Part shown: positions 2,982-57,374 of the stretch, piece by piece
How the letters are laid out: each line of letters opens with the position of its first letter
How positions within the stretch are numbered: the first letter of the stretch is position 1
Source of the DNA: a virus
IMG/VR virus record: IMGVR_UViG_3300024999_000119
Location: 1 to 58,302 of that record
Length of the DNA: 58,302 nt
Reading direction: 5' to 3' (one strand)
Notes under the pieces: model-generated
Told to the model about the DNA's origin: nothing
The model's input: only the letters and a program-made list of their open reading frames with translations
Databases searched by the model: none
Made by a program: the position numbers and the translations under genes

Positions 2982-3023
2982 GGGGGATAGGGAAGATGAT
3001 GATGATGAGGATATGGAGAACTA

Positions 3024-3084
3024 CTTCCTCATATTTTGACAATTTTTTTGAAACTATTCTATCTCCTTACATTTTGACAATTTT
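3024..3084. repeat. two-copy direct repeat, period 38
   Basis: ATTTTGACAATTTT occurs at 3033-3046 and again at 3071-3084, and the similarity extends about nine bases upstream of each copy (CTCAT / CTTAC). Each holds a TTGACA-like hexamer, but no good -10 box follows at 17 bases. They may be paired binding sites in the control region between copies B and C. Confidence 0.45.
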
Positions 3085-3171
3085 CTATAAACATTTGCCT
3101 TAAATCATAAAATTTTTTTATAAATTTTTTACAAATATTTAGGGATATACTTCGGTTTTGCCTTCGGGTTT

Positions 3172-3958: not shown

Positions 3959-4279
3959 ATGGAAAACTTAACAGATAGAATTAGAATTAAGAAAGAGGAA
4001 ATTGAAGCTAAACAAAAAGAACTTGATAGCTTCCAACCTGATAATATTGATTATGAAGACCAATTTGATGAAATGCTGAATTACTCTTATCCTAAATTAT
4101 TTGGTATGCTACCTTCTCGTATTTTATATGATTGTGATCGTCAAAAATATTATAAGGATCTCAATAATTTTGTTTATTCAATGGATATTAGAGAACATAA
4201 AATGTATATACAACTTGAGAAAGAGTTGGATGATTTAGAAAACGAACTATTTCAATTAGAACTTGAAGGGTTAGGATAA
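3959..4279 (+). CDS. coiled-coil hypothetical protein, 106 aa
   Basis: Start at 3959 with AAGGAG. Two helical, charged stretches (residues 1-25 and about 80-104) flank an aromatic middle section. It is probably a coiled-coil or helical-hairpin protein. It sits between the two zinc-ribbon paralogues. Function unknown. Confidence 0.55.
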   Translation: MENLTDRIRIKKEEIEAKQKELDSFQPDNIDYEDQFDEMLNYSYPKLFGMLPSRILYDCDRQKYYKDLNNFVYSMDIREHKMYIQLEKELDDLENELFQLELEGLG

Positions 4280-18702: not shown

Positions 18703-18971
18703 ATGGATATTAAAGAATTACCTATTAAATTTGAACAGGATTCTTATGTTTTTATGCTGATGATGAAAGGAGACTCTTCTTATATATATATTCTAAAGAA
18801 TCTAAAGAATCTAAGTGTCCTATCTATGAGATATTTGAAAGAGTAGTAAACAATTCTATTGTAGAATATCCAAGAACAAAAGACTTTGGTAATTCTGCTT
18901 GGACTACAAAAGAATGGGTTAATGCTGTTGATATTTTATATAGAATAGAAAAAGAGATAAAAGAAAGATAA
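18703..18971 (+). pseudogene. frameshifted small gene (would be 89 aa)
   Basis: From ATG 18703 the frame reads MDIKELPIKFEQDSYVF and then loses sense, with a TAG after 47 codons. Adding one T to the T5 run at 18749-18753 continues as YADDERRLLLYIYSKESKES and later SAWTTKEWVNAVDILYRIEK, ending at 18971. The second half is clearly protein-like. It is a sequencing error in a homopolymer or a real one-base deletion. Function unknown. Confidence 0.6.
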
Positions 18972-18989
18972 GGATATGCTTTATTTTTA

Positions 18990-19067
18990 GTTTTAAGGTA
19001 TCTACAATTAATTATTATTTAAAAGACATATAAACTTATAGGTTAAGTATTAAAGTGTCTTAGAAAC
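18990..19067 (+). repeat. conserved hairpin element, copy 1 (inverted copy at 57111-57174)
   Basis: GTTTTAAGGTAT (18990-19001) pairs with GTGTCTTAGAAAC (19055-19067) through 12 pairs with one bulge and GU pairs. TATTAAAGTGTCTTAGAA (19048-19065) is repeated exactly at 57157-57174. The reverse complement of the 57-kb copy also aligns without gaps over CATATAAACTTAT (19027-19039), 12 spacer bases and AAAGTGTCTTA. The substitutions keep the stem. It lies in a gene-free stretch before a small membrane-protein gene. Confidence 0.6.
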
Positions 19068-19083
19068 GATTATAAGGAGAATT

Positions 19084-39412: not shown

Positions 39413-40000
39413 ATGTTATCATTGATTGGTACTGGAATAGGATCTGCGTTATCCTATTGGGGTGAGAAGAATAGACAAGTAGAAGAAGAAAGAGCAATAG
39501 AAGCTCAAAGGAAAGCATTAAAAGAAGCTAAATATACTTCTGGTGAAAAAGCTAATATATTAGATAAAGTAGGCGACCAATATAATACTTCTAATCTAAA
39601 TATAATGAATGCTTCTGCATTAGGATTATCTGGTGTATTGAATTCTGATACTCTTAGAGGATTAACTGCATCAAGATTATTGGGCGAAAGAGCTAATAAG
39701 CTATCTGAAACTGAATTATCTATATTAGATGCTAATAAGAAGATAGATACACAAATTGCTGGTTTAGGTAGTGCATCTCCTGTTAATATTGGTAATATAA
39801 TAGGTGGTGGATTAGCTGGATTCCAAGCTGGAGAAGCATTAGATAAATCTGGAGTCTTTAAGAATCTATTCGGTGATTCAAATGCAAAAGTAGGTGCTGA
39901 TGCTATTACAACAGCAACAAATCCAAATCCTCCTTCTTTAACTGGAAATGAATTGGCTAAGTACCAAGAGCAAAAGAAACTATGGCAAGGATGGATATAA
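39413..40000 (+). CDS. internal core / ejection protein, gp14-like, 195 aa
   Basis: The N-terminus LIGTGIGSALSYWGEKNRQV with a long A/K/E helix, the glycine-rich IIGGGLAGFQAGEAL hydrophobic stretch and length of 195 parallel T7 gp14 (196). Followed by two more ejection-type proteins in the order gp14-gp15-gp16. It would leave the head first and form the outer-membrane part of the ejection channel. Confidence 0.55.
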   Translation: MLSLIGTGIGSALSYWGEKNRQVEEERAIEAQRKALKEAKYTSGEKANILDKVGDQYNTSNLNIMNASALGLSGVLNSDTLRGLTASRLLGERANKLSETELSILDANKKIDTQIAGLGSASPVNIGNIIGGGLAGFQAGEALDKSGVFKNLFGDSNAKVGADAITTATNPNPPSLTGNELAKYQEQKKLWQGWI

Positions 40001-41526: not shown

Positions 41527-44500
41527 ATGAGTGATTTAAGAAATGATATTTTTTCTTTATTAAAAGAAAAGAAAGTTTTGAAAAGTGATTATTCTATTGA
41601 TACATTTAAAGAGAAGTTATCTTCATCAGAGAATACTGATTTAATATATGATGTTTTGGGTGGTGGTACAATTCCTAAAGAAGAGTTTTATCATTTAGTT
41701 AATCCAGAATCTAGTCAAGATGCTATTGCACAAAGACACAATACTCCATTAGAAGGAATGAATTGGTTTCTTCAAGCTGCTACTTATATTGGTGATAATG
41801 TTGTTGCTGGTATAGAGAAGGTATCTGGTGCTTCAATTAATCCAGGTTCAGCAGATAGAGCTTCTGATATAAATCAACATTTTGCTATGGCAACTGAAGG
41901 AATGTTTAAGAACTCTTGGGATTATGCTAAAACTGTTGGTTTAACTGTAGTGCGAGATAGTTTTGATAGTCCCTTTACCATATTAGATAAAGCTTTAGGA
42001 ATAGAGAAAAAACAAACAGCTAATAAAGATGAATCAAAAATTATGGTTGAAAAAGAATTAGCTAATTCTTATGAAAACATACATAACACTAATACTAAAA
42101 TTAGAAATGAATATATTGCTACTGGAAAGATAGATCCTAAATCTACTAGTATAATGGCTAGTTTAATGGATTCTGCTCCTGCTACTGTAGCAAGTCTTGC
42201 ATTAAGTTACTTTACAAAGAGTCCTAAAGCTTCTATGGCAATGTTTATGGTTGAAAGTGGTGGTAGAACTGGTGCAGACTTTTATGCTGAAACTGCAAAG
42301 AGAAAAGAAGATGGTTCTTTGATACCAAATACTGGTAATGTTGAACATGGTATCTTTGGTACTCATATAGGTATTATTGCTGGTTTAGTAGAAGGTGGTA
42401 CTGGTTTTGAGCATTATGCTGCTAAATTAGGTACTAAACTTGCTGGTAAACAGATTGCTGAAGCTACTGCTGGTATTACAAAGAATGCAATGCTTAAGAA
42501 GATGGCTTATAATAACTTAAAAGATTATGCATTAAATTCTGTTGGTGAAGGTTTAGAAGAGGTAGTACAAGGTGGATTAGAGCAATGGGGAAAGAACTAT
42601 CTTGATTTAAGAAATGGGTATGATCTCAATCAATTAAAAGATGGGTTCTTACAGGGAGCATTTGGTGGTTTAATATTAGGTGGAGGAATGCAAACTGTAT
42701 CTTTTGCTAGTGACTACAAAAAAACAAAAGCAATACAAGAAACAGTAGAAAAAGTATTAGATAAAAAAGAAAAGTTAAAACAAGCATTAAAGACTGACAA
42801 AAATATATCTCCAGAAGAGAAAAAGAAATTAGAAGATAAACTTAAAGAAGAACAAAGACTCTTAAAGTTGTTATCAGAAGCTTCCCCAGAAGAGTTTGGA
42901 ATGCATGCTAGTAATTTAGTCCATACTGTTACGTCTTCAATGGAGATTATGAAAAGGAATTCTGAAGCATATACTGCTTTTATGCAACATAAAACTAATT
43001 TATATAATGCAGAGATAGAAAAAGGTTATAATGAAAATACTTATACTAATTTAATGGAATCAGAAGAGGAAGGTAGATTAGCAAAGTTATCTGCTGAAAG
43101 TAGCAAAAGATTTAGAACATTAACAGAAAAGTTTAGAGAAGAAAGAAAGAATGATGAAGAGTTTAAGAAACTTAGTGATAAAGAACAGAATGAAGTTATT
43201 AATGCATTAGCACATACACATTTATTAAATGGTACTGATTCTGCTGAATATAAAAAGTTATCTGAAAAAGCTAAAGAATTAAAATCAATTAAAGATAAGA
43301 AACAAGAGAAGAAAGATTTAACTCCAGATGATAAAATTGAGATAATGAAGTTAGGAAAAGAATTGACTAAAATTAGTCAAGAAGCATTTGATTTATTTAA
43401 TCCTATACATCACGAAATGTTATCACAAGGTTTAACAGATGCTAATATTCTTAAATATAGTACAAAAGAAGAGATAGATAATGCTCAACAGCAAATAGAT
43501 GTATATAATGAAAATCAGAAAAGAGTACCTACTATAAAAGAAGATATTAAACCAGAAGTGATGGTTAACAAAACTGTTGATTTATCAAAAGTTTTGGAAA
43601 GTTCTAATCCAAAAGTAAATAAGACTAAACCTGAACTTCAAAAAGAAGCTAAAGATTTAGGTATTGTACCAGAGAAGAAAAACAAAGTAGAATTACAAGA
43701 AGCTATAGATAATAAAAAGAATGAAATTCAATCTAATATTTATAATGCTGGTGATGAAGAACAAATAGTTAACCCAGAGGTTACATCTAATGAAGAAGGG
43801 ACTATTACATTAAGCGATGATCAATTAAACCAATTGCAGAGTTTAATGGATGCAGAAAAGAATAAATCTAATACTAAAATAGATGGTTCTGAATTTGGTG
43901 AAGATGGTGAAGGTAATAAACCTATATCTAAAACAGATAAACCACAAGATGTATTTGAAGAATCTGATTCTGAATTTATTGAAAGAAGAAGACAATATGC
44001 TAGGCAAGAAGTAATTGATGGTAAAGGTATTTATGCTGTTATAGGAGATAATACATACGTTTCTATTGATAATAGATTTACAGTTAACTCTAAGACTGGT
44101 GAATTGATAAAAGATAAAAAGTTATTAGAAGAAATAAAAGCCAAGGGAAAGAGATATGAAGCTAAAGATAAATCAGTAGATACTCAAAATACTTCTTCTG
44201 ATGCTGTTGAAATTATAACAAATATTTTGTCAAAAGAAACATGGAATGAAGCTGCTACTTGTAGTGGAACAGCATGTTATGATGTTAGTGATAAAATTAT
44301 AAGCGTTTTATCTAATAATAACATTAAAGCTGTTAAAATGGATGTTAATGCTCAACAGTTAGATAAAAATGGAAATCCTGCATCTAAAACTGGTGATCAT
44401 AGATTAACAGTTATCGAATATAATGGTGAATTTTATATAGCAGAAATACCACAACCAGCATATTTAACATATGATACTAAAAATGGAACTATTGCTTTTA

Positions 44501-47500
44501 AAAAAGGAATAGAACTGAAATCTCTTAAACCAATAGTTTATCCTTTTTCTGAATGGATAAATAGGAATAAACCTGACAATGTATATTATCCTGAAATAGA
44601 AGGAATAGAAAGAAATATTGAGAACATAAAACAATATATTCCATTGTTAGAAAGAAGAGTGTCCGAAAGATTAGCAGAAGTTCAAAATTCAAATGGGAAA
44701 CTTCCTTTTATAGTTAAAAAATATAATAAAGCTAAAGATGAGCTAGATAGAGCTTTAAATGCTCTACAATCGGATAATACTTCTAACCTTATACAAAGTA
44801 TGGGTAAGGAGGAGAAAGTGTCACTACAAGGCTCTATGGACGTTATATATACTTCTGTAGGTGGTCATTTGATGGAGATTCAAAGTAATCTACATGAATT
44901 GAAAGATGGTGATGTTTTAACAGCAGAAAAACTACCAAATGATATAGGTGCAACAAATATAAAGACTGGACTTGTTTATCCTTATTTTCTAAGAATTGTA
45001 GGACAGAATGGTAAAAATTATGGTGGTATTCCTTTTGGTTCTGTTGCAGATAAAGAAATATCAGATATGATTGACAATGGAAAAGAAGTACAGATACATG
45101 TTGTTAAATCTAAACTTAGTTCTTTTGATTTTACTTATAGTGCTAAAGAATCTATAGTTCCAATAGAAAATCCAATTAGTGATTTGAATTTTAAGACTAT
45201 TGCTGATTATGCTTCATCTTTAGCTGAACTTCAAGATGTCAATCCTAATTTAGTGAATTTAATTAAAACTTCTTTAGGTAATGTTCAAGTTGTTTCTGCT
45301 ACTCCAGAAACTGTTATCAACAGCAATGGTGATTTAATGGGTACTAGAAAAGCATTATTAAGCAAAGATAATGGAGTTTATACTATATATGTTAATATGG
45401 AAAAGACTAATGGCAGAGAAGGTAATTCCATTATACACGAAGGATTACATAAATTCTTGAGAGATTCTTTAGATATAAAAGGGGTAGATAATAAAGGTAA
45501 TAGCACATACAATAAAGAATTTGATTTAGATTTAAGAGCAATGGTTAAAGAGATTGAAAAACAAATATCTAATACTGAATTTTATAGAAAGAATAAAAGT
45601 GATTTAGATAGAATATTTGATTTAAATTCTTTTAGAAGATTAGGGTTAAAAGAAGATCAGATTGCTAATAGACAAGCTGAAGAGTTCTTAGCTCATGTAT
45701 TTTCCGGTACATCTTCTCTTAGAGGTTGGATGGAAAGAACTAGTGTTAATGTTGGAGAGGATTCAGATACATGGTTTGGAGCATTCAAGAGAATATTGTT
45801 AAAGATATTTAAGAAAAGAACAGATAGCTTTACTTATTTGAATTATTTAGAATCTATATTTGATTATAGATTAAATACTAATATAAGTGAAATTATGGGT
45901 GAAGTTAATGAGTCTTTAATGGAAGAAAGTAATGATGATTCTTTAACTGATATAGAAAAGATAAATAAGTCTGCTGAAACATTAGATAATCCACATGTTA
46001 TAGTAGATGCTGTTGGTATGATAGCTCCAAATGAATTAGATGCTATTGCTTATGTACAAACATTATCACAAGGTGAATTTGAATCTCAATTGTTTTCAAA
46101 TGAAGATTGGTTAAAATCATCTTCTTTTAGTTTTGAAAGTGAAATAGAAAATAATCCTGGAAAGAGCCATATAACATTAGATAAGTTTAGAAAACACTTA
46201 GCTGTTAATATGTGGAGAAGAGCTAATTCAATGATGAGAGTTCCTACTATAAGACTTAAAATGCATGGTAAAGGAGAGAAGAGATTCTTAACTGTACAAG
46301 AATTAGGTGTTATACATAAAGATAAGAATAATGTTATTAATTATGGATGGACTGAAAAGAATAAGTTACAAGAAAGAAATAAACAAATAGGTAGAATATT
46401 AGGTCAGAATACTGAATTAGTTTATATAGATGCAGTGGAGTTTTATAATGGTAGTTTTGGTGATGTATCTAAACAAGATAATAAATTATTAGCAGAGAAT
46501 TTATATAATAAAGGATATTTATATCTAGGTAGATTTGCTGATAAGAATACATTTGCTGCTATTAAATTAGAAAACCTAGAAGAAGCTAAAGTTAAATTAG
46601 CACAATTAAATTTATTATATACACAAAAAGCATCACAATGTTTTCAACAATTATTTCAAGAATTCCAAGAAGGTAAAAGCAAATACCCAATTAGTTTAGA
46701 GGAAGTTCAGAAAGTAACTAATACTGCTGGTGATATTACAAATGTTGCTAGAGCTTTAGTTGAAGATTTTAAATTAGGTGCTACTATTGATGAAGATGGT
46801 AATCTTAATTCTGTATTATATAATCCTAATTTTTCTGATACTTTTGATTTAATTAAGATATTCAAAAGAACATTAGATGTTGTTGAACAAACTGCAACTC
46901 CTACAGAAATAGATGAAGCTATAGATAAATTAGATGAAAAGAGTGGCATAGTAGTTAATGGTAAAGGAGAAGTTGATGTTAGAACTGCAATATTTGATGC
47001 CAAGAATAGTAGTGCAAAACAAACTGTTACTATTGGTGATAGAGAGATAGAATTTAATTTAATGGATATATTGATAAATGAATTAGGTACTGAAACTACA
47101 GATGGTGTTGTTATATCAAGAAGAGATGGATTCAATAAGTTTTATAGAGAAATACATGCAGAACTATATGATACTCCAGTTAAAGCTATAATAACTAATA
47201 ATAGTAAAGGAGATTTTTCTACTCCATTTTTAGGTAAGATGGCTATTCATACAACTAATTCAGATGCATTAGAAGCTTGGATGAGAGAAAACAATATAGC
47301 TTTGCTTATGTCTTCTTCTGCTGTTAAAGTCAACTTAGATTTAAACAAGATAAATGATAATGGAGAGAAAGGTTCAATAGGGTATGCTAATAGTGACTTG
47401 TTAGGAATAGCACAAACATTTAATATACCATTAAACAATATTTATCGTCAAGGACAAAAGAAAGGTGTAAAAGATAATGCTAAAGGATTGGCTCAATCAT

Positions 47501-50500
47501 TTACATCTAATTTAACTGTAGGAGAGAATGAGATATTCTTTGATAATGGTGGTATTAAACAATTCATTGATGAATTGCTCTCTTCTTTAGTTGAAAGTTT
47601 TGAAAAGGATATGGGCAATTTAGATGAAACTAAACTAATTAAAGAACTAATTAGACTATCTAGAGAGTCAACTAATCCACTGACTTCATCTCTTGCTAAT
47701 ATTGCTGTTCAATCTGTATTACTTGAAGGAGATATTAATTTAATAAATAAATTAAATGATATTAAAGATGTTGATAATGTTGTTAAACAAGATAACTATT
47801 TAGAAATAACCAAACTATTGAAAAAAAGGGGGATGGAAACATCTGGTATATTCTATTCACCAATGTTTTCTGATTTTGTATCTTCTTATATTAAAGAAAG
47901 TTTATCTAAAATATATACATTCAAAGCTCCAGCTTCTTGGGTTGTATTGTCTCCAGATTTAGGTTTCTTAGAAGAAACTAATATTCAAGGAATATTTGAT
48001 CATATTCAAAAAGAAAAATTTCCATTAAGAAAGTCTATTGATAAATTAAATAATACTATCAAAGAATTAAATGATGAAAAAGAGAAGTTAGCTAGTTATT
48101 TAGATGGTAGTAAATCTGATAAATTCATTTTAGATGCTATAGATGATATAAATGAATCTATTAAGAAGAATGAAGGATGGTTAGAAAAAACTTCCAAAGT
48201 TGAAGATGTTGATAAAATGAATAAAGAAACTTGGAAAGAATTAGAAAAGATTATAGATGTTAAAAATGGTAGATTAAAAGAAGGTTATGGTTTAATATCT
48301 AAAGAATATTATGAGAAGTTTCCAATTCTAAAAAGAATGAATAAAGCGATAGTTACTGCTGTTCCTTCGGATGGTATATCAGCACAACAAGGTGTATATC
48401 TATTTCCTATTGAGACTGGAGATGAAAATATAATTAAATTGAATTCAGAACATACACAATCAAAAGTAGGAAAAGATTTTGATATTGATGTTATGAATAT
48501 ATTGTTTCCAGATGCAAGATATTTTTCTAATGATGCTTTTAATAAATATTTTGATTCTATAAATGGTTCTAATAAGAATTTAGATAAAGTATCAGCAAAG
48601 GTATATGGCAAAGTATTAGGTAAAAAGTTTAAGAATGAAGATGGTAGCATAGATCTAAAAGATTTATATTCTATGAAGACTAGATTAGAGTTTATGCAAA
48701 AGTTATTTGGAGAGAAGAAACAATCAAAAGAAGTTGAAGATTTATTGTTTGGAAGAAAAGTATTCTCTTTGATACATGATTCTTCTCCACTTCTTGATAA
48801 GTTTCAGAAATTGATTGGTATTGCAATCAATATGAGAAAAGTATTAACTATTAAAAGTGAATTAGGAATGCAATCTCAAATTGGTGGTGTAGATGTAGGA
48901 ACTGGTGATATAACACTAGCATATCTTGCATTAATGGTTTACACTAATGATATGGTTGATATTCCTACTAATACTAATGGATTATTCTATTCTTTGACTC
49001 CAGCTAAACTATATGCAAAGATTTATGGTATCTCTAAAGAATCTGCTGAAATAGCTTATGCTGTTGATAATGCGTTATTTAGATATGCTTATCAAATATC
49101 TTCTCAAAGGAATGTAGATTCTTTTACTGATGATTATTCTTTAAGTGATACTATCAAATACATTAAAAATCAAAAGAAGATTAATACTGCAATTAGCAAT
49201 AGTGATTTATCTACTCTTACTTCTTTTGTAATGAAAGAAGTAGCAGAAAGTTTAGATGAAAAACTAACTGCAGAACAAGAGAATTTGGTATATGAATATT
49301 TAGATAATGCTAGATTTTCTAATAGTGTTATGGATTCTGCTGCTCTTAAATCTGTCGAATTAATAGATACATCTATAATAAGAAACTTTGATGTTTCTCC
49401 TAAGCAAAATCAATCTTGGAATAGAGATATTATGTATGCATTCGCTAATAACTCAAAACATATTCCAATAGAAGTTAGAGAAATGATTGCTCTTATTAAT
49501 GAAAAAACTAAGAAATTAGTTGATGAGAAGAGTCCTTATTTAGAAGGATATAATTTCCTTGCATCTGAATTAGTGAAGACTACAGACCAAGAGTATAATG
49601 CTAAAATAGATAGAGCTAAAGCAATAAACACAAAGGTTGAATTAGCTATGCTAACTAGTATAGATGATACATTGGATTGGGCTAGATGGGTAGTAGCAGC
49701 ATATCTTAATCCAGTATCTATGACCAATAATCAATATGCCAATAATAAAGATGGTAAGATAAATGTAATCAAATTGAATATGAAAGCTAATAGATTTGGT
49801 ATTCAACAAGCTCTTCCTGGATTAATGTTAAAAGCTATTAATAGAGAATTAGTACCAAATGAGAATGCTAAAGTAGGACAATCAGTTTCTGTTAGAATTG
49901 ATGGTGTTACTATAAAATTTGAATTAACTAAATACAATAAGATTTCAATAACTTATGAAGGTAAAGCAGTAAAGCATTATTATAGAAATACATTGGAATT
50001 ACAAGAATCTGCTAGAAAAGGTGATAGAATAGCTAATCTTTTATTGACTAAAGCTGATACAGTAGCATTAAAGAATGAATATGCTTTAAGTAATCTAATA
50101 GATTTTAAGAAATCAACTTCTGGTGAAGATAAGTTTGAATTAGCTTCTAATTATTTAAATAAATTGATTAAAGAACGTGCTATCGACAGAGATGGTGCTA
50201 CTTTATTGTTCATATCTTTAGTTGGTGGTACTTCTGAAGGTAGTTCCTTTATGTTCAATTTAGACCATGAAAAAATAAATGAGAATGATTCTCCTACAAA
50301 CAAAACTTTATTGAGATTAGCAGCGAATACAAGATATGGAAGAGACTTCTTACAAGCATTTGCATCTATTTCTACTGAATCATTTAATGATAGTGGAATA
50401 GGAACTTCTACAAGAGTATCTAGGTCAATACAAGAAAGTAATGATATAGAAGTATGGGAAGAAGATGGCAAAATAGATGAAGGTAATAAATATATTGCTG

Positions 50501-53500
50501 ATAATATTACAGTAAATAATTATGAAGATTTAGGAAGTTTTCTTAGAGAAGATTATATATATAATATTATCAGAGATTCAAAAGTATTTATTGATGATGA
50601 TAATCCTTTGTTTTCTGTATTTAATTTTAATACTGGTAATGAAGATGTTCTGACTGCTAATTCTGTATATAACAGCACAATATTTAGACCTATTAAATTT
50701 CCTAAAAATAGAGATAAAGTTAAATTGGAGAATTTGTATCTAACTAAGATGGAAGAAATCAATAAACTTCATAAGAGTATGGAAACAAACCAAATTGTTA
50801 TCAATAGAAACATATCTCTTAGATTAGATGCTGTTATGGATCATCCTAGTGGACTTGTAGCTAAAGCAGTCAACTTTATTACAAAGAGAAGACAACAGAA
50901 AATAGAGAAAGAAACTTTTACAAAGAATGTAATAAGATTAGTGGAAGAGAATCCTTTGAATATTTCTGTTAAAACTACATATAAAAATGGAATGTACAGT
51001 TACACATTTGCTCTAACTAACAGCAAAAAAGAAAGAGTATCTGACATAAATGAATCTGAATTAGAAAATGTTATTGGTAATGAAATAAATAAACTTAAAA
51101 ATCCTAAAGAGTACCATACAATGTTAGCTTCTATTGAATTTATGAAAATGAATGCATTAGAAGTCAGATATAAAACAAATTTATCTGGATTCATTGATAG
51201 GTATGTTAATTCTTATAGGAATTTCTCTCATAGTGAAATAGTAGAATCTATTGCTGAAAAGTATAGAAGAATAGTTTCTGCTAAACCATATAGTTATCCA
51301 CATTATTATACGAAAGAAGCAATATTAGAAGTTCTTAAAAAGAATGTTGATTCTAAGTATAAAAAGAATACTGAAGAAGAGAAAGCTAATTTAGTTAAGA
51401 AATTATTTGATAAATTAACTAGAGTTGGTGAATATTATAATGGTAATGATGTATTTGATAAAGATAAATTGTATATCCAAGATTCATTTGTACCACATCA
51501 ATTAGCATCAAATAAACTGTTTACTTCACTTAAAAGTGATTTAACTTCTTTATATTGGTTAGAATATGAAACAGAAGCTATAAATAGAGGACAAGATAAA
51601 ATAATTGTCAATAGAATGAAACAGCATTTTGCTATGAATGCTGGTTATACTATGTTATCAAAAGAGAATAAATCTATTTCTAAAGTTAAGAAAGATGATA
51701 TGATTAGCTTCTATACTTATGGTCAGAAATCAGATGAAAAAATAAACTTAATAGTAGAAAAGAAAACTGATAATGGAATTTTTGGTAAGATAGATAAAGA
51801 AGTATATCTCAATACTCTTAATATGAAAATCAAATATTATGATATGCTATTAGATAAAGGATATGATGTTATAGTAACTGAAGAATTATTATATTATTAC
51901 AAAGAGTTATATGCTAAAGGAATAATAAACATTCCAAATCCACCAAAATCTGGAAAAGATTTATTATATGCAGTCTCGTCAGGATTAAAGATTGAAGTAT
52001 CAGATGAACAATTATTAGGTAGTTATTTAACATCAAGAATATTTATAAAACAAAGAGATAGCAAAGGTAACTTTATAAATATTAAAGGTGTAGAATCAAC
52101 TAAAAAGAATACTATATGGGATAAATTAGCTACAATATGGTTAACTGCTATGAGTGGTAGTATATTGGGTACAATAGTACCTGCAATAAGCAATTACATT
52201 GATGGTTATTGGTCATTGATGAATACTTTAGGTAAAACTACTATGTTGAAAGCATCATTATATGGTGGTAAGTTATCTGATGTTAATTTAGTTAAAGCTG
52301 CAAAGAATATTATAAATGAACCTACATCTCAAGGTGGATTCAAAGAATATATGGAATTAGCTGATACTCCTATCAATAGTGTGAATATAGAAGATAGAAT
52401 GGAAGTTAAGAAGCTAATTAAAGCTCATGTTATTAGATATGCTCTTCAAGAAGGATTAGTATCTTTATCTTCATTAGAAAGTAAAGATAGAAGAGTGATG
52501 CAACAAATATTAGAGAATGGTGTACAGAGTGCTGATTTTGAAAAAGCATTAGCTATTCTAACTAAGATTACTGGTGTATTAACTAGTCCTTTTGCTAAAG
52601 CTGAACAAACTATAAGATTAAAAGCTGCATATTCATTTGCATTCAAAGCTATTGTATTGGATGGTAAAACTAATTCAAATCAAATTAGAACAGAGATAGA
52701 GAATGGTGTAGCATTGACTCAAGGTTTATATGGTCAATTATATCGTAGAACTCAAGAAAGACATTCTGCTGGTAAAGTTGCAATGCAATTCCATCAATAT
52801 ACAGCATTCCAAAAGATTGTGTTTAAGTCTGATAAAGAGTTAATGAAAGAATTGAATCAAACTTGGGCTAATATATGGAGAGTAGATGGTAAGAGTCCAA
52901 TAGCAGCATTCTTTAAAGGTGGTACAGTCAATGGTGAAATTAATATGGCTAGAACTAGAGCAAGAAGATATGCTTATGATTATACTATAGGTGTTGGATT
53001 GATGACATTGTTTCCAGGAATGAGAGTAGGTAATCCTTTAATAAGAGTATCTATAATGGCATTAAGAATGTTATTAACAGCATTAGTTAATGGTAACGAT
53101 CCAGAGCCTAAAGAAGTTAAATCTTTGTTATTTGCTTTTGTTTCTTTGTTTGCTGGTTTAGGAATTTCTCTTCCTACATTTATGGTTTATAATATTATAA
53201 ATGATGAAGATAATATTGTAGATTTACATCCTAGAGCAACATCAATAATGATGAATATATGGGATATGATTGATAGAGATACAGCTAAAAATAATAGAAG
53301 TGAAATATTGCAATCTAATAAAGATTGGGCTAAAGTTGAGAAATCATTTATATTTGGGTTCAATCTATTTGCAGCCAACTATTTCACTTATGGAACAAAA
53401 GAACAAGAAGATTGGGCTAGAAGGAACATAGTATCTAAAATTACATATCAATTTGAAGATATGCCTAAGAATACTATTTCAACTGTAGGAGAATTTGTTC

Positions 53501-53553
53501 CTATATTGAATCTAATAAATGAAAAAAGAATTGAGAAATATAAAGGATATTAA
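41527..53553 (+). CDS. giant ejection protein with predicted virion RNA polymerase, 4008 aa
   Basis: It occupies the gp16 place of a T7-type core. Residues ~200-400 have glycine-rich hydrophobic segments; ~400-760 are coiled coil with a SAP-like stretch. A papain-like segment has Cys near 914 (AATCSGTACYDVS) and His near 957 (GDHRLTVIEYNG). A zincin motif HEGLH lies at ~1304 with AEEFLAHVF ~1390. Residues ~2130-2440 resemble crAss-type polymerases: TFKAPASWVVLSPD, RLKEGYGLISKEY, AVPSDGISA, KVGKDFDIDVMNILFPD (D2317, D2319, D2321) and LIGIAINMRK. Membrane-like segments follow at ~3530 and ~3815-3890. It should be packaged, injected and transcribe early genes. The polymerase call rests on motif order; the whole is one uninterrupted frame. 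Confidence 0.65.
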   Translation: MSDLRNDIFSLLKEKKVLKSDYSIDTFKEKLSSSENTDLIYDVLGGGTIPKEEFYHLVNPESSQDAIAQRHNTPLEGMNWFLQAATYIGDNVVAGIEKVSGASINPGSADRASDINQHFAMATEGMFKNSWDYAKTVGLTVVRDSFDSPFTILDKALGIEKKQTANKDESKIMVEKELANSYENIHNTNTKIRNEYIATGKIDPKSTSIMASLMDSAPATVASLALSYFTKSPKASMAMFMVESGGRTGADFYAETAKRKEDGSLIPNTGNVEHGIFGTHIGIIAGLVEGGTGFEHYAAKLGTKLAGKQIAEATAGITKNAMLKKMAYNNLKDYALNSVGEGLEEVVQGGLEQWGKNYLDLRNGYDLNQLKDGFLQGAFGGLILGGGMQTVSFASDYKKTKAIQETVEKVLDKKEKLKQALKTDKNISPEEKKKLEDKLKEEQRLLKLLSEASPEEFGMHASNLVHTVTSSMEIMKRNSEAYTAFMQHKTNLYNAEIEKGYNENTYTNLMESEEEGRLAKLSAESSKRFRTLTEKFREERKNDEEFKKLSDKEQNEVINALAHTHLLNGTDSAEYKKLSEKAKELKSIKDKKQEKKDLTPDDKIEIMKLGKELTKISQEAFDLFNPIHHEMLSQGLTDANILKYSTKEEIDNAQQQIDVYNENQKRVPTIKEDIKPEVMVNKTVDLSKVLESSNPKVNKTKPELQKEAKDLGIVPEKKNKVELQEAIDNKKNEIQSNIYNAGDEEQIVNPEVTSNEEGTITLSDDQLNQLQSLMDAEKNKSNTKIDGSEFGEDGEGNKPISKTDKPQDVFEESDSEFIERRRQYARQEVIDGKGIYAVIGDNTYVSIDNRFTVNSKTGELIKDKKLLEEIKAKGKRYEAKDKSVDTQNTSSDAVEIITNILSKETWNEAATCSGTACYDVSDKIISVLSNNNIKAVKMDVNAQQLDKNGNPASKTGDHRLTVIEYNGEFYIAEIPQPAYLTYDTKNGTIAFKKGIELKSLKPIVYPFSEWINRNKPDNVYYPEIEGIERNIENIKQYIPLLERRVSERLAEVQNSNGKLPFIVKKYNKAKDELDRALNALQSDNTSNLIQSMGKEEKVSLQGSMDVIYTSVGGHLMEIQSNLHELKDGDVLTAEKLPNDIGATNIKTGLVYPYFLRIVGQNGKNYGGIPFGSVADKEISDMIDNGKEVQIHVVKSKLSSFDFTYSAKESIVPIENPISDLNFKTIADYASSLAELQDVNPNLVNLIKTSLGNVQVVSATPETVINSNGDLMGTRKALLSKDNGVYTIYVNMEKTNGREGNSIIHEGLHKFLRDSLDIKGVDNKGNSTYNKEFDLDLRAMVKEIEKQISNTEFYRKNKSDLDRIFDLNSFRRLGLKEDQIANRQAEEFLAHVFSGTSSLRGWMERTSVNVGEDSDTWFGAFKRILLKIFKKRTDSFTYLNYLESIFDYRLNTNISEIMGEVNESLMEESNDDSLTDIEKINKSAETLDNPHVIVDAVGMIAPNELDAIAYVQTLSQGEFESQLFSNEDWLKSSSFSFESEIENNPGKSHITLDKFRKHLAVNMWRRANSMMRVPTIRLKMHGKGEKRFLTVQELGVIHKDKNNVINYGWTEKNKLQERNKQIGRILGQNTELVYIDAVEFYNGSFGDVSKQDNKLLAENLYNKGYLYLGRFADKNTFAAIKLENLEEAKVKLAQLNLLYTQKASQCFQQLFQEFQEGKSKYPISLEEVQKVTNTAGDITNVARALVEDFKLGATIDEDGNLNSVLYNPNFSDTFDLIKIFKRTLDVVEQTATPTEIDEAIDKLDEKSGIVVNGKGEVDVRTAIFDAKNSSAKQTVTIGDREIEFNLMDILINELGTETTDGVVISRRDGFNKFYREIHAELYDTPVKAIITNNSKGDFSTPFLGKMAIHTTNSDALEAWMRENNIALLMSSSAVKVNLDLNKINDNGEKGSIGYANSDLLGIAQTFNIPLNNIYRQGQKKGVKDNAKGLAQSFTSNLTVGENEIFFDNGGIKQFIDELLSSLVESFEKDMGNLDETKLIKELIRLSRESTNPLTSSLANIAVQSVLLEGDINLINKLNDIKDVDNVVKQDNYLEITKLLKKRGMETSGIFYSPMFSDFVSSYIKESLSKIYTFKAPASWVVLSPDLGFLEETNIQGIFDHIQKEKFPLRKSIDKLNNTIKELNDEKEKLASYLDGSKSDKFILDAIDDINESIKKNEGWLEKTSKVEDVDKMNKETWKELEKIIDVKNGRLKEGYGLISKEYYEKFPILKRMNKAIVTAVPSDGISAQQGVYLFPIETGDENIIKLNSEHTQSKVGKDFDIDVMNILFPDARYFSNDAFNKYFDSINGSNKNLDKVSAKVYGKVLGKKFKNEDGSIDLKDLYSMKTRLEFMQKLFGEKKQSKEVEDLLFGRKVFSLIHDSSPLLDKFQKLIGIAINMRKVLTIKSELGMQSQIGGVDVGTGDITLAYLALMVYTNDMVDIPTNTNGLFYSLTPAKLYAKIYGISKESAEIAYAVDNALFRYAYQISSQRNVDSFTDDYSLSDTIKYIKNQKKINTAISNSDLSTLTSFVMKEVAESLDEKLTAEQENLVYEYLDNARFSNSVMDSAALKSVELIDTSIIRNFDVSPKQNQSWNRDIMYAFANNSKHIPIEVREMIALINEKTKKLVDEKSPYLEGYNFLASELVKTTDQEYNAKIDRAKAINTKVELAMLTSIDDTLDWARWVVAAYLNPVSMTNNQYANNKDGKINVIKLNMKANRFGIQQALPGLMLKAINRELVPNENAKVGQSVSVRIDGVTIKFELTKYNKISITYEGKAVKHYYRNTLELQESARKGDRIANLLLTKADTVALKNEYALSNLIDFKKSTSGEDKFELASNYLNKLIKERAIDRDGATLLFISLVGGTSEGSSFMFNLDHEKINENDSPTNKTLLRLAANTRYGRDFLQAFASISTESFNDSGIGTSTRVSRSIQESNDIEVWEEDGKIDEGNKYIADNITVNNYEDLGSFLREDYIYNIIRDSKVFIDDDNPLFSVFNFNTGNEDVLTANSVYNSTIFRPIKFPKNRDKVKLENLYLTKMEEINKLHKSMETNQIVINRNISLRLDAVMDHPSGLVAKAVNFITKRRQQKIEKETFTKNVIRLVEENPLNISVKTTYKNGMYSYTFALTNSKKERVSDINESELENVIGNEINKLKNPKEYHTMLASIEFMKMNALEVRYKTNLSGFIDRYVNSYRNFSHSEIVESIAEKYRRIVSAKPYSYPHYYTKEAILEVLKKNVDSKYKKNTEEEKANLVKKLFDKLTRVGEYYNGNDVFDKDKLYIQDSFVPHQLASNKLFTSLKSDLTSLYWLEYETEAINRGQDKIIVNRMKQHFAMNAGYTMLSKENKSISKVKKDDMISFYTYGQKSDEKINLIVEKKTDNGIFGKIDKEVYLNTLNMKIKYYDMLLDKGYDVIVTEELLYYYKELYAKGIINIPNPPKSGKDLLYAVSSGLKIEVSDEQLLGSYLTSRIFIKQRDSKGNFINIKGVESTKKNTIWDKLATIWLTAMSGSILGTIVPAISNYIDGYWSLMNTLGKTTMLKASLYGGKLSDVNLVKAAKNIINEPTSQGGFKEYMELADTPINSVNIEDRMEVKKLIKAHVIRYALQEGLVSLSSLESKDRRVMQQILENGVQSADFEKALAILTKITGVLTSPFAKAEQTIRLKAAYSFAFKAIVLDGKTNSNQIRTEIENGVALTQGLYGQLYRRTQERHSAGKVAMQFHQYTAFQKIVFKSDKELMKELNQTWANIWRVDGKSPIAAFFKGGTVNGEINMARTRARRYAYDYTIGVGLMTLFPGMRVGNPLIRVSIMALRMLLTALVNGNDPEPKEVKSLLFAFVSLFAGLGISLPTFMVYNIINDEDNIVDLHPRATSIMMNIWDMIDRDTAKNNRSEILQSNKDWAKVEKSFIFGFNLFAANYFTYGTKEQEDWARRNIVSKITYQFEDMPKNTISTVGEFVPILNLINEKRIEKYKGY

Positions 53554-53558
53554 AATAT

Positions 53559-55499
53559 ATGCATTGTTTAAAATGTAATGAAGAAGAAGTTCAAGAAGGT
53601 TTATGCAGAACACATTGGATAGAATCTAAAGAGATAGAGTTTACAGATAATACAGATTGGGATAATCTAGGTATGATTAAATGGTTAGCCTTTATGTTCC
53701 CTGTTCATTTTAGAAATAACTTCTCTAAAGAGCATATAGAAGTATATAAAACATTATTAGAATTATATGATCCAAGATATACGAATAAATTACATAGATT
53801 GAGAGAATTGATTGCTTTCCGTTCATTTGCTAAAAGTAAGATAATTTTTGGATTTATTCTGTATGTATTAGCACATAATAATGTTAAAGTTAAAATTAAA
53901 TCTACAGATGGAATGATTTCAGAAGTAAAAATAGAAGAGAAAACTATTATTATCTTTTCTGAAACTGGTTCTATGGCAGAAGATTTTGTTGTTAATATTA
54001 GAGATGAAATATCTACAAATAAAATGTTCAAATACTTTTATCATTTTGTTGTACAGAATGCAAAAGATTCTGATACCGGTCAATGGACTAGAACAGCATT
54101 TAAGATAAATGGATTGTTTGTATTAGGATTAGGTGCTGGTATGCAAGCTAGAGGTAAAATAAAGGGTGCTTATAGACCAACATTAGTGTTCCACGATGAT
54201 ATTTATTCCGAGAATAACGTATTAACAGAAGATAGAAGATTAAAGATTAAGAATTGGTTTTATAATTCTGCTAATAACTCTGTTGATGATTTGTTGGGTA
54301 AAATATTCTTAGTAGGAACAATAGTTCATGACGATACTGTATTAGTAGAGTGTGAAAAGAGTAGCTCTTGGAAGACTCTTAAATTTTATCCTATGCCTAT
54401 ACATAAATTTAGAGAATTCATTAAACTATATCTAAAAGTCAATTTAGACAAATCTGAATGTATATTACCTTTTGAAGATGAAGAAGAATTTATAAAGATT
54501 AGAAAACAAATAGATTTCTTTAATAAATTAGAAGAAGATCCATCTTGGGAAATAACTTGGAAAGAAAGAGTTGGTTTATATTTATTAGCATCAAAATATA
54601 AAGAAGCAGTTGAAAATCAAGCAATAGCTGGATTCTATCAAGAATATTTCCATTTAACGATACCATCAGAATTAAGAAAGTTTAATGTAGAATATTTTCA
54701 AAAGATTCCTGGTGATTGGCAAATAAAGAATGAATTTGGTTATAATTGGTTTGTATGTGATAAGATGTTTGATCAACCACAAATGATTAATATAGAATTA
54801 GGTGTTGACTTAGCTTCCGGTAAAAAAGAAGGTGATAATGTAGTCATTGCCGTTATAGGTAAAACTTCTAATGGCAAGATATTCATATTAGATATTAAAT
54901 CTGGTAAATTTGCAATGAGAGATAATATGGAGAATGATTCTCCTAATTATGATAGAGTTGATAGGATATTAGAAGATATAACAATGGTTAGAAAGATAGG
55001 ATGGATAGATGAATTATTTAGATTATCTTTAGAATATAATCCAAGAGTTATCAAGATAGGTACTGGTGGAGGATTAGAACCTACAGTAGTTATTGAAACT
55101 AGAAGAGTATTTAATGCTAATGGTAATTATACAAATATTATTCCAAGAGTTCAGACTACAAGTGATGGCAATAAATTTGAAAGAATAGAAAATACATTAT
55201 TACCATTATATGAGACTATGTCTGTATATCATAGAAAAGGGTTAGATTCTTTAGAATATGAATTAGAGTTTTTAAGAAAAGCTAAGAATGATGACCATCC
55301 AGATGCAGTTGAAGTAGCAGTACATAACATTCAAAGACCTTCTCATGTACCGTATACATTATTTACTACTACAAAAGAAACAGTTAAATTACCTACATTA
55401 GGTAAGTATGCAGTTAAAGCAGGAGGAACGTATGATTGGAGAACGAATATGATTGCATGTATGATTAGTTATTCATATCTTTATAATGTATTTTTTTAA
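53559..55499 (+). CDS. terminase large subunit, 646 aa
   Basis: N-terminal zinc-like knuckle (CLKCNEEEVQEGLCRTHW), then ATPase with a T7-type Walker A (AFRSFAKSKIIFG, ~residue 86) and Walker B TLVFHDDIYSE (~210), a coupling motif (VGTIVHDD) and the RNase H-fold nuclease with IELGVDLASGKKEGDN (~420) and DHPDAVEVAVHN (~605). It pumps and cuts DNA. Its place behind the ejection proteins, rather than before the portal, is the T7 order. The start at 53559 is five bases after the giant gene. Confidence 0.85.
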   Translation: MHCLKCNEEEVQEGLCRTHWIESKEIEFTDNTDWDNLGMIKWLAFMFPVHFRNNFSKEHIEVYKTLLELYDPRYTNKLHRLRELIAFRSFAKSKIIFGFILYVLAHNNVKVKIKSTDGMISEVKIEEKTIIIFSETGSMAEDFVVNIRDEISTNKMFKYFYHFVVQNAKDSDTGQWTRTAFKINGLFVLGLGAGMQARGKIKGAYRPTLVFHDDIYSENNVLTEDRRLKIKNWFYNSANNSVDDLLGKIFLVGTIVHDDTVLVECEKSSSWKTLKFYPMPIHKFREFIKLYLKVNLDKSECILPFEDEEEFIKIRKQIDFFNKLEEDPSWEITWKERVGLYLLASKYKEAVENQAIAGFYQEYFHLTIPSELRKFNVEYFQKIPGDWQIKNEFGYNWFVCDKMFDQPQMINIELGVDLASGKKEGDNVVIAVIGKTSNGKIFILDIKSGKFAMRDNMENDSPNYDRVDRILEDITMVRKIGWIDELFRLSLEYNPRVIKIGTGGGLEPTVVIETRRVFNANGNYTNIIPRVQTTSDGNKFERIENTLLPLYETMSVYHRKGLDSLEYELEFLRKAKNDDHPDAVEVAVHNIQRPSHVPYTLFTTTKETVKLPTLGKYAVKAGGTYDWRTNMIACMISYSYLYNVFF

Positions 55500-57061: not shown

Positions 57062-57110
57062 CTTCGTTAGAAGAATAAATACAATATCCTTAAATTCTTC
57101 ATTAGATGAG

Positions 57111-57174
57111 TTTTAAGACACTTTCTCTTTCTACCCATAAGTTTATATGGATTTTATATTAAAGTGTCTTAGAA
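57111..57174 (-). repeat. conserved hairpin element, copy 2 (inverted relative to 18990-19067)
   Basis: TTTTAAGACACTTT (57111-57124) pairs with AAAGTGTCTTAGAA (57161-57174) over 14 bp with one GU. Its loop contains ATAAGTTTATATG (57137-57149), the reverse complement of the segment in copy 1, at the same distance from the arm. It follows the last virion gene. The 313-base gap 57062-57374 holds this element, a terminator and no gene. Confidence 0.6.
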
Positions 57175-57242
57175 GTGAAGATAGATGCCTTAAATGTGAT
57201 TCTGTAATACATATATAGATAAGATATGTTAAAGAATAAAAA

Positions 57243-57270
57243 AAAAGAAGAGAAATCAATCTCTTCTTTT
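57243..57270. terminator. bidirectional rho-independent terminator
   Basis: Perfect 11-bp stem AAAAGAAGAGA/TCTCTTCTTTT with a 6-base loop. A long A-run to its left gives a strong T-run leftward and TTTT follows rightward. It ends the virion operon and the leftward endonuclease gene. Confidence 0.8.
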
Positions 57271-57374
57271 CACTAAGATAAGGTTAAATAAGCGTGGATG
57301 TTATATTTATAGATGCACTACCCACTTTTCCCAACTACGAAAATAATTAATCATTATCAAATTATCGAAATAAT

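Follow-up and report, generated by a model that had tools for sequence, protein, structure and literature searches.

The giant gene and its setting

The window, the whole stretch of DNA analyzed here, is a linear 58,302-bp IMG/VR record with a GC content of 29%. It encodes a protein of 4008 amino acids, referred to below as the giant, together with the following features.

39413..40000, + strand: 195-aa first protein of the ejection cassette, in a T7 gp14 / N4 gp52-like position; 26% identity (E 1e-10) to a 204-aa protein in the same place in relative L025
39982..41514, + strand: 510-aa second protein of the ejection cassette, in a T7 gp15 / N4 gp51-like position; assigned by position only
41527..53553, + strand: giant 4008-aa protein, carrier of the predicted virion RNA polymerase; open reading frame with collinear homologues in three IMG/VR viruses
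42418..42672, + strand: N-terminal module, giant residues 298-382, aligning with N4 vRNAP residues 343-430
45436..45450, + strand: HExxH zinc-peptidase motif HEGLH, giant residues 1304-1308
47089..47346, + strand: candidate second barrel DPBB-B, giant residues 1855-1940; suggested by invariance and a weak collinear crAss match
47869..48582, + strand: catalytic double-psi barrel region DPBB-A, giant residues 2115-2352, with a ~100-residue helical insertion; AlphaFold and Foldseek
48442..48489, + strand: extended signature NSEHTQSKVGKDFDID, giant residues 2306-2321; its spacing, NSE-x6-G-x-DFD-x-D, is that of the phrog_4291 polymerase family
48475..48489, + strand: catalytic triad motif DFDID, giant residues 2317-2321, with predicted Mg2+ ligands D2317, D2319, and D2321; invariant in four homologues and in register with known RNA polymerases
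53125..53181, + strand: lone strongly hydrophobic segment, giant residues 3867-3885, a possible membrane helix by hydropathy
53559..55499, + strand: large terminase TerL, directly downstream of the giant; phrog_38, E 1.7e-58

The order of a ~200-aa protein, a ~470-aa protein, the giant, and TerL is also found in L025/L048. In L048, the genes before the giant encode proteins of 228, 709, 137, 204, and 466 aa, and TerL follows. The 510-aa protein of the window has no significant similarity to the 486- and 466-aa proteins at its place in the relatives. The portal is P22-type (E 3.6e-41), and the capsid protein is SU10-type. Because of these two types, and because a long-tail cluster would find little space in L048, the virus is likely a short-tailed phage. 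From the cassette beside TerL and from analogous systems, we infer that the giant is packaged in the virion and injected.

In all four members of the family, the HExxH motif precedes the polymerase motif by 1011-1118 residues, and E1386 is likewise invariant in their alignment. The strongly hydrophobic segment at residues 3867-3885 is not seen as such in the relatives. Upstream of the HExxH domain, residues 912-965 (window 44260-44421) read CSGTACYDVSD ... GDHRLTVIEY, which resembles the active site of a Cys-His (papain-like) hydrolase. As a single query, the whole giant has no useful match in Pfam, PHROGs, NCBIfam, or the PDB, and neither Pfam nor a PDB sequence search returned a match for this polymerase-bearing protein.

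Shine-Dalgarno-like sequences (AGGA, GGAG, or GAGG) precede 23 of 29 checked genes in the window. Such sequences upstream of most genes are unusual for Bacteroidota phages, and thus the host may not be a bacteroidote. A search for an early promoter motif found none; the recurring intergenic sequences were mainly Shine-Dalgarno. The intergenic regions at 18847-19083 and 57062-57374 share TATTAAAGTGTCTTAGAA near similar flanks and are possibly a homing or intron-related element, since HNH-like genes are nearby. The largest intergenic region contains two near-identical tandem 34-nt copies with TTTTGACAATTTT (3021-3054 and 3059-3092). At the left end, on the strand opposite to most of the genome, two small genes (934-1332 and 2479-2865, - strand) are paralogous, with the sequences MNQELKTKVESIL... 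and MELKEKVESLL....

The DFDID motif and the relatives of the giant

The first-pass annotation described a crAss-type virion RNA polymerase within the giant at 48359-48850, which corresponds to residues ~2278-2441. The strings on which it was based are all present and in the order claimed: ASWVVLSPD at 2136-2144, GYGLISKEYYEKF at 2253-2265, AVPSDGISA within 2274-2295, DFDID at the residues listed above, and LIGIAINMRK at 2429-2438. The IGIA-type segment in the last of these exists, yet it does not serve as evidence for a polymerase because its score against a model of the crAss block does not exceed that of shuffled sequence. A DxDxD pattern by itself also carries no meaning in a protein of this size, since about one is expected by chance (1.06 expected, one seen). 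The specific form DFDID is expected 0.003 times.

The significance of DFDID lies in its conservation among divergent giants. A search for related loci with the window alone found no relatives. They were found by scanning IMG/VR with the degenerate pattern GKDFDID and were then confirmed by tblastn. Three uncultured relatives have contigs encoding giants of 4349, 4433, and 5174 aa. Over the polymerase region, tblastn gives E-values of 2e-11 to 7e-14 for two of them and 4e-8 for the third. The four giants are collinear over their whole length at about 20-25% identity, and nowhere in the alignment are invariant positions as dense as at residues 2306-2321. Twelve residues are invariant there: N2306, S2307, E2308, Q2311, V2314, G2315, K2316, D2317, F2318, D2319, I2320, and D2321.

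The TerL of the window is 42-44% identical to the TerL that follows the giant gene in L047, L048, and L049, and the four viruses are therefore one lineage. Searches of 50,697 phage records by tblastn returned nothing for the C-terminal 2850 aa of the giant, for the portal, or for the giant of a relative. TerL had only distant matches in these records, at less than about 27% identity. No relatives were found among the scanned bacterial and archaeal genomes.

Relation to two-barrel RNA polymerases

A profile of the polymerase regions of the four giants was compared with 220 targets, composed of the ORFs of phi14:2 and P23-45, the members of phrog_4291, and reversed versions of all of these. The top 12 ranked targets are all polymerase segments, with P23-45 gp96 first, phrog_4291 next, and then crAss-like phi14:2 gp66. 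The score of gp96 is 40.4, compared with 30.0 for the best non-polymerase and 26.8 for the best reversed decoy. In profile-profile comparison, the E-values are 7.8e-5 for P23-45 gp96 (score 50.0), 8.4e-4 for crAss gp66 (score 42.9), and 3.5e-3 for phrog_4291. All three unconstrained alignments place the invariant DFDID in register with the DxDxD metal motif of the known enzymes. Pairs of known families fall in the same range (P23-45 and crAss, 6.8e-3; P23-45 and phrog_4291, 7.6e-5).

Searched in the opposite direction, over 365 ORFs of the four viruses, the P23-45, crAss, and phrog_4291 models give weak matches only (E 0.018 to 0.84); in L024 and L023, those within the giant coincide with the polymerase site. 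Neither E. coli beta nor beta' matches the polymerase region, and neither matches the crAss profile. The cellular beta' subunit is too remote for detection.

These comparisons bear on whether DFDID and its polymerase resemblance are a coincidence in a long and divergent phage protein. One DxDxD is expected in the giant, and library searches with the giant alone find nothing, but the motif is kept in four divergent viruses, and the fold search described below also returns polymerases. Coincidence was largely refuted by the decoy-controlled ranking together with the profile-profile comparison, and we regard it as very improbable.

An AlphaFold model of residues 1640-2760 made from the four family members alone was not usable (pLDDT 32.8). 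The model of residues 2115-2352 (pLDDT 78.1, pTM 0.61) used an alignment that included 31 phrog_4291 rows, and the structural result is partly circular because of these polymerase sequences. The core of this model is barrel-like, and the DFDID loop sits between its last strand and a helix. The first-pass annotation had proposed Foldseek as a check, and among the top 50 PDB matches to this partly circular model, 47 are RNA polymerases and three are kiwellins. The phi14:2 structure 6VR4 is second (probability 0.99) and is the best phage match; the non-virion RNA polymerases of P23-45 and P74-26 are also included. No E-value in this search reached 0.001. A search of a viral structure library agrees with the PDB outcome. 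The model and the fold search confirm compatibility with an RNA polymerase rather than providing an independent discovery.

By computation, a catalytic double-psi barrel with a metal-binding DFDID loop is kept in four uncultured phages and is related to the polymerases of P23-45, phrog_4291, and crAss-like phages. The catalytic barrel of the giant is well supported by sequence profiles and modeling. The second barrel is only suggested. In the candidate region, K1886, K1904, and K1934 are invariant in the four homologues, and the match to the crAss RNAP profile is collinear, with an E-value of 0.016 that is not above decoys. No secure match was found for the bridge helix or the trigger loop.

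Another reading is that the giant is injected as a large polyvalent protein and that its polymerase-like barrel either is degenerate or serves a purpose other than early transcription, such as priming. The secure placement of the catalytic barrel but not of the second barrel and trigger loop, and the extreme sequence divergence among relatives, are consistent with this reading. Against it, the four homologues keep all three catalytic aspartates and most of the residues around them unchanged, which argues for a working active site. In addition, no other two-barrel RNA polymerase is visible in the window. The earlier statement that the genome has no second RNA polymerase thus holds for two-barrel enzymes, as judged from the profiles of three two-barrel families and a DxDxD listing of the ORFs. 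The early region contains fewer sigma-70-like matches than expected (106, compared with 141 +/- 12.6 in shuffles), a weak signal that is compatible with an injected polymerase and is not evidence for one. A degenerate or repurposed barrel is, on balance, an unlikely account of the giant.

Comparison with injected polymerases and proposed role

Giant-protein injected transcription is known in detail from N4, with a T7-type polymerase, and from P23-45, with a two-barrel polymerase on a tape measure. In crAss-like phages, the two-barrel subunits are separate or fused.

P23-45 gp96 is a 5002-aa virion RNA polymerase fused to a tape measure, with a metallopeptidase domain (PMC10770324). Like the giant, it is a single-polypeptide two-barrel RNA polymerase inside a giant virion protein with such a domain, shares the motif order N-x-E ... 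G-x-DFD-x-D, and is the best profile match. It differs in that its polymerase is N-terminal rather than in the middle, its motif is DFDGD rather than DFDID, and it serves a long-tailed phage as tape measure. Whole-protein homology between the two was not detected. As deposited (L045 13288-28296), gp96 is without an HExxH motif despite its metallopeptidase-domain annotation.

The closeness of gp96 in sequence profile, its similar length, and its metallopeptidase domain (PMC10770324) would fit a giant that is itself a tail tape measure fused to a two-barrel polymerase, in a long-tailed phage, and not a short-tailed ejection protein. However, the L048 genes around the giant leave little space for a long-tail set, the portal and capsid protein are of the P22 and SU10 types, the N-terminal module is like that of the N4 ejection polymerase, and the polymerase sits in the middle of the protein. 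A tape measure is therefore an unlikely identity for the giant, which is better read as an ejection protein.

The crAss-like phi14:2 gp66 (PDB 6VR4) shares the DFDID form of the motif. It is reportedly packaged in the virion and injected. Unlike the giant, it is a separate 2180-aa protein with partner proteins, in a ~100-kb genome, and it scores below gp96 against the giant profile. The portal, capsid protein, TerL, and cassette proteins of the window have no match in phi14:2 at E 0.1; with no structural gene convincingly matching, nothing ties the window phage to Crassvirales. Of the first-pass reading, a two-barrel catalytic barrel inside the giant of an ejection-type cassette is supported, while the label "crAss-type" is at most tentative, gp96 being ahead by profile and gp66 the best phage structure match.

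The phrog_4291 family is made up of phage proteins of about 900-1050 aa annotated as RNA-dependent RNA polymerase. Its members possess the NSE-x6-G-x-DFD-x-D signature with spacing identical to that of the giant. They differ from it as stand-alone proteins with the DFDGD form and without ejection modules.

Flavobacterium phage Fpv2 (NC_031931) is an 89-kb phage outside Crassvirales that, like the window, encodes a giant virion structural protein (4401 aa) with a polymerase motif and HExxH. In this protein (L141 14344-27549, + strand), DYDID is at residue 3222 and HExxH at 4179. The Fpv2 polymerase, unlike that of the window, is clearly crAss-like (tblastn from gp66), and the tested window proteins have no match in the Fpv2 genome. 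Giant fused two-barrel RNA polymerases thus also occur outside Crassvirales.

N4 gp50 combines a membrane domain at its N-terminus with a central RNA polymerase, an HExxH domain, and a large helical part; gp51 and gp52 form the channel for its ejection (PMC12633501). The giant resembles it in size (3500 aa in N4), in its polymerase in the middle, in its HExxH domain, and in its helical remainder. The N4 gp52/gp51/gp50 set corresponds to the ~200/~500/giant cassette of the window, where the giant ends the cassette beside TerL. An N-terminal stretch of the L024 giant matches phrog_2206, the N4-type virion RNA polymerase (E 2e-10), and N4 gp50 residues 343-432 (E 4.9e-5); the window also aligns best to N4 gp50 in this stretch, but with an E-value of only 0.19. 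The polymerase itself is different. That of N4 is T7-type, its HExxH (residue 2228) follows the polymerase rather than preceding it, and the polymerase region of the giant has no match to N4 gp50 residues 900-2110 (E 0.39). T7 gp16 had been the first analogue proposed for the ejection functions; by analogy of anatomy, N4 gp50 appears to fit better. Through its catalytic barrel, the giant belongs to the two-barrel RNA polymerase superfamily, an assignment that reaches neither the crAss clade nor, for the polymerase, the N4 family.

We consider it probable that the giant is a virion-packaged ejection protein whose middle third contains a two-barrel DNA-dependent RNA polymerase on a single polypeptide. 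An injected early-transcription polymerase, its activity predicted, is the best reading. The mechanism is proposed by analogy with N4 and P23-45 (PMC10770324). The giant would share the head with the cassette proteins of ~200 and ~500 aa and would exit ahead of the DNA or together with it. The N-terminal module of the giant may act as an anchor at an inner-membrane channel, and its HExxH domain may act on the cell wall or on processing. The polymerase would refold in the cytoplasm, bind the first-entering end of the genome, and transcribe the earliest genes, possibly helping to pull the DNA in.

The arrangement may reflect a polymerase swap on a common ejection chassis. This lineage, probably short-tailed, would have an N4-style giant with the membrane module, zinc peptidase, helical body, and three-gene cassette, in which the T7-type polymerase has been replaced by an unrelated, cellular-type two-barrel one. 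The chances of such a swap seem about even. If it is true, injected early transcription is a modular function filled by unrelated enzymes. A 58-kb phage with a two-barrel RNA polymerase embedded in its N4-like ejection protein would represent a third arrangement and would show that chassis and enzyme are exchangeable. The enzyme would also be a divergent polymerase lying between the branch of P23-45 and that of crAss, two branches whose relationship is based on few sequences. Virion-carried transcription would extend to a lineage without a close cultured member, as judged from the giant, portal, and terminase queries of the 50,697 phage records.
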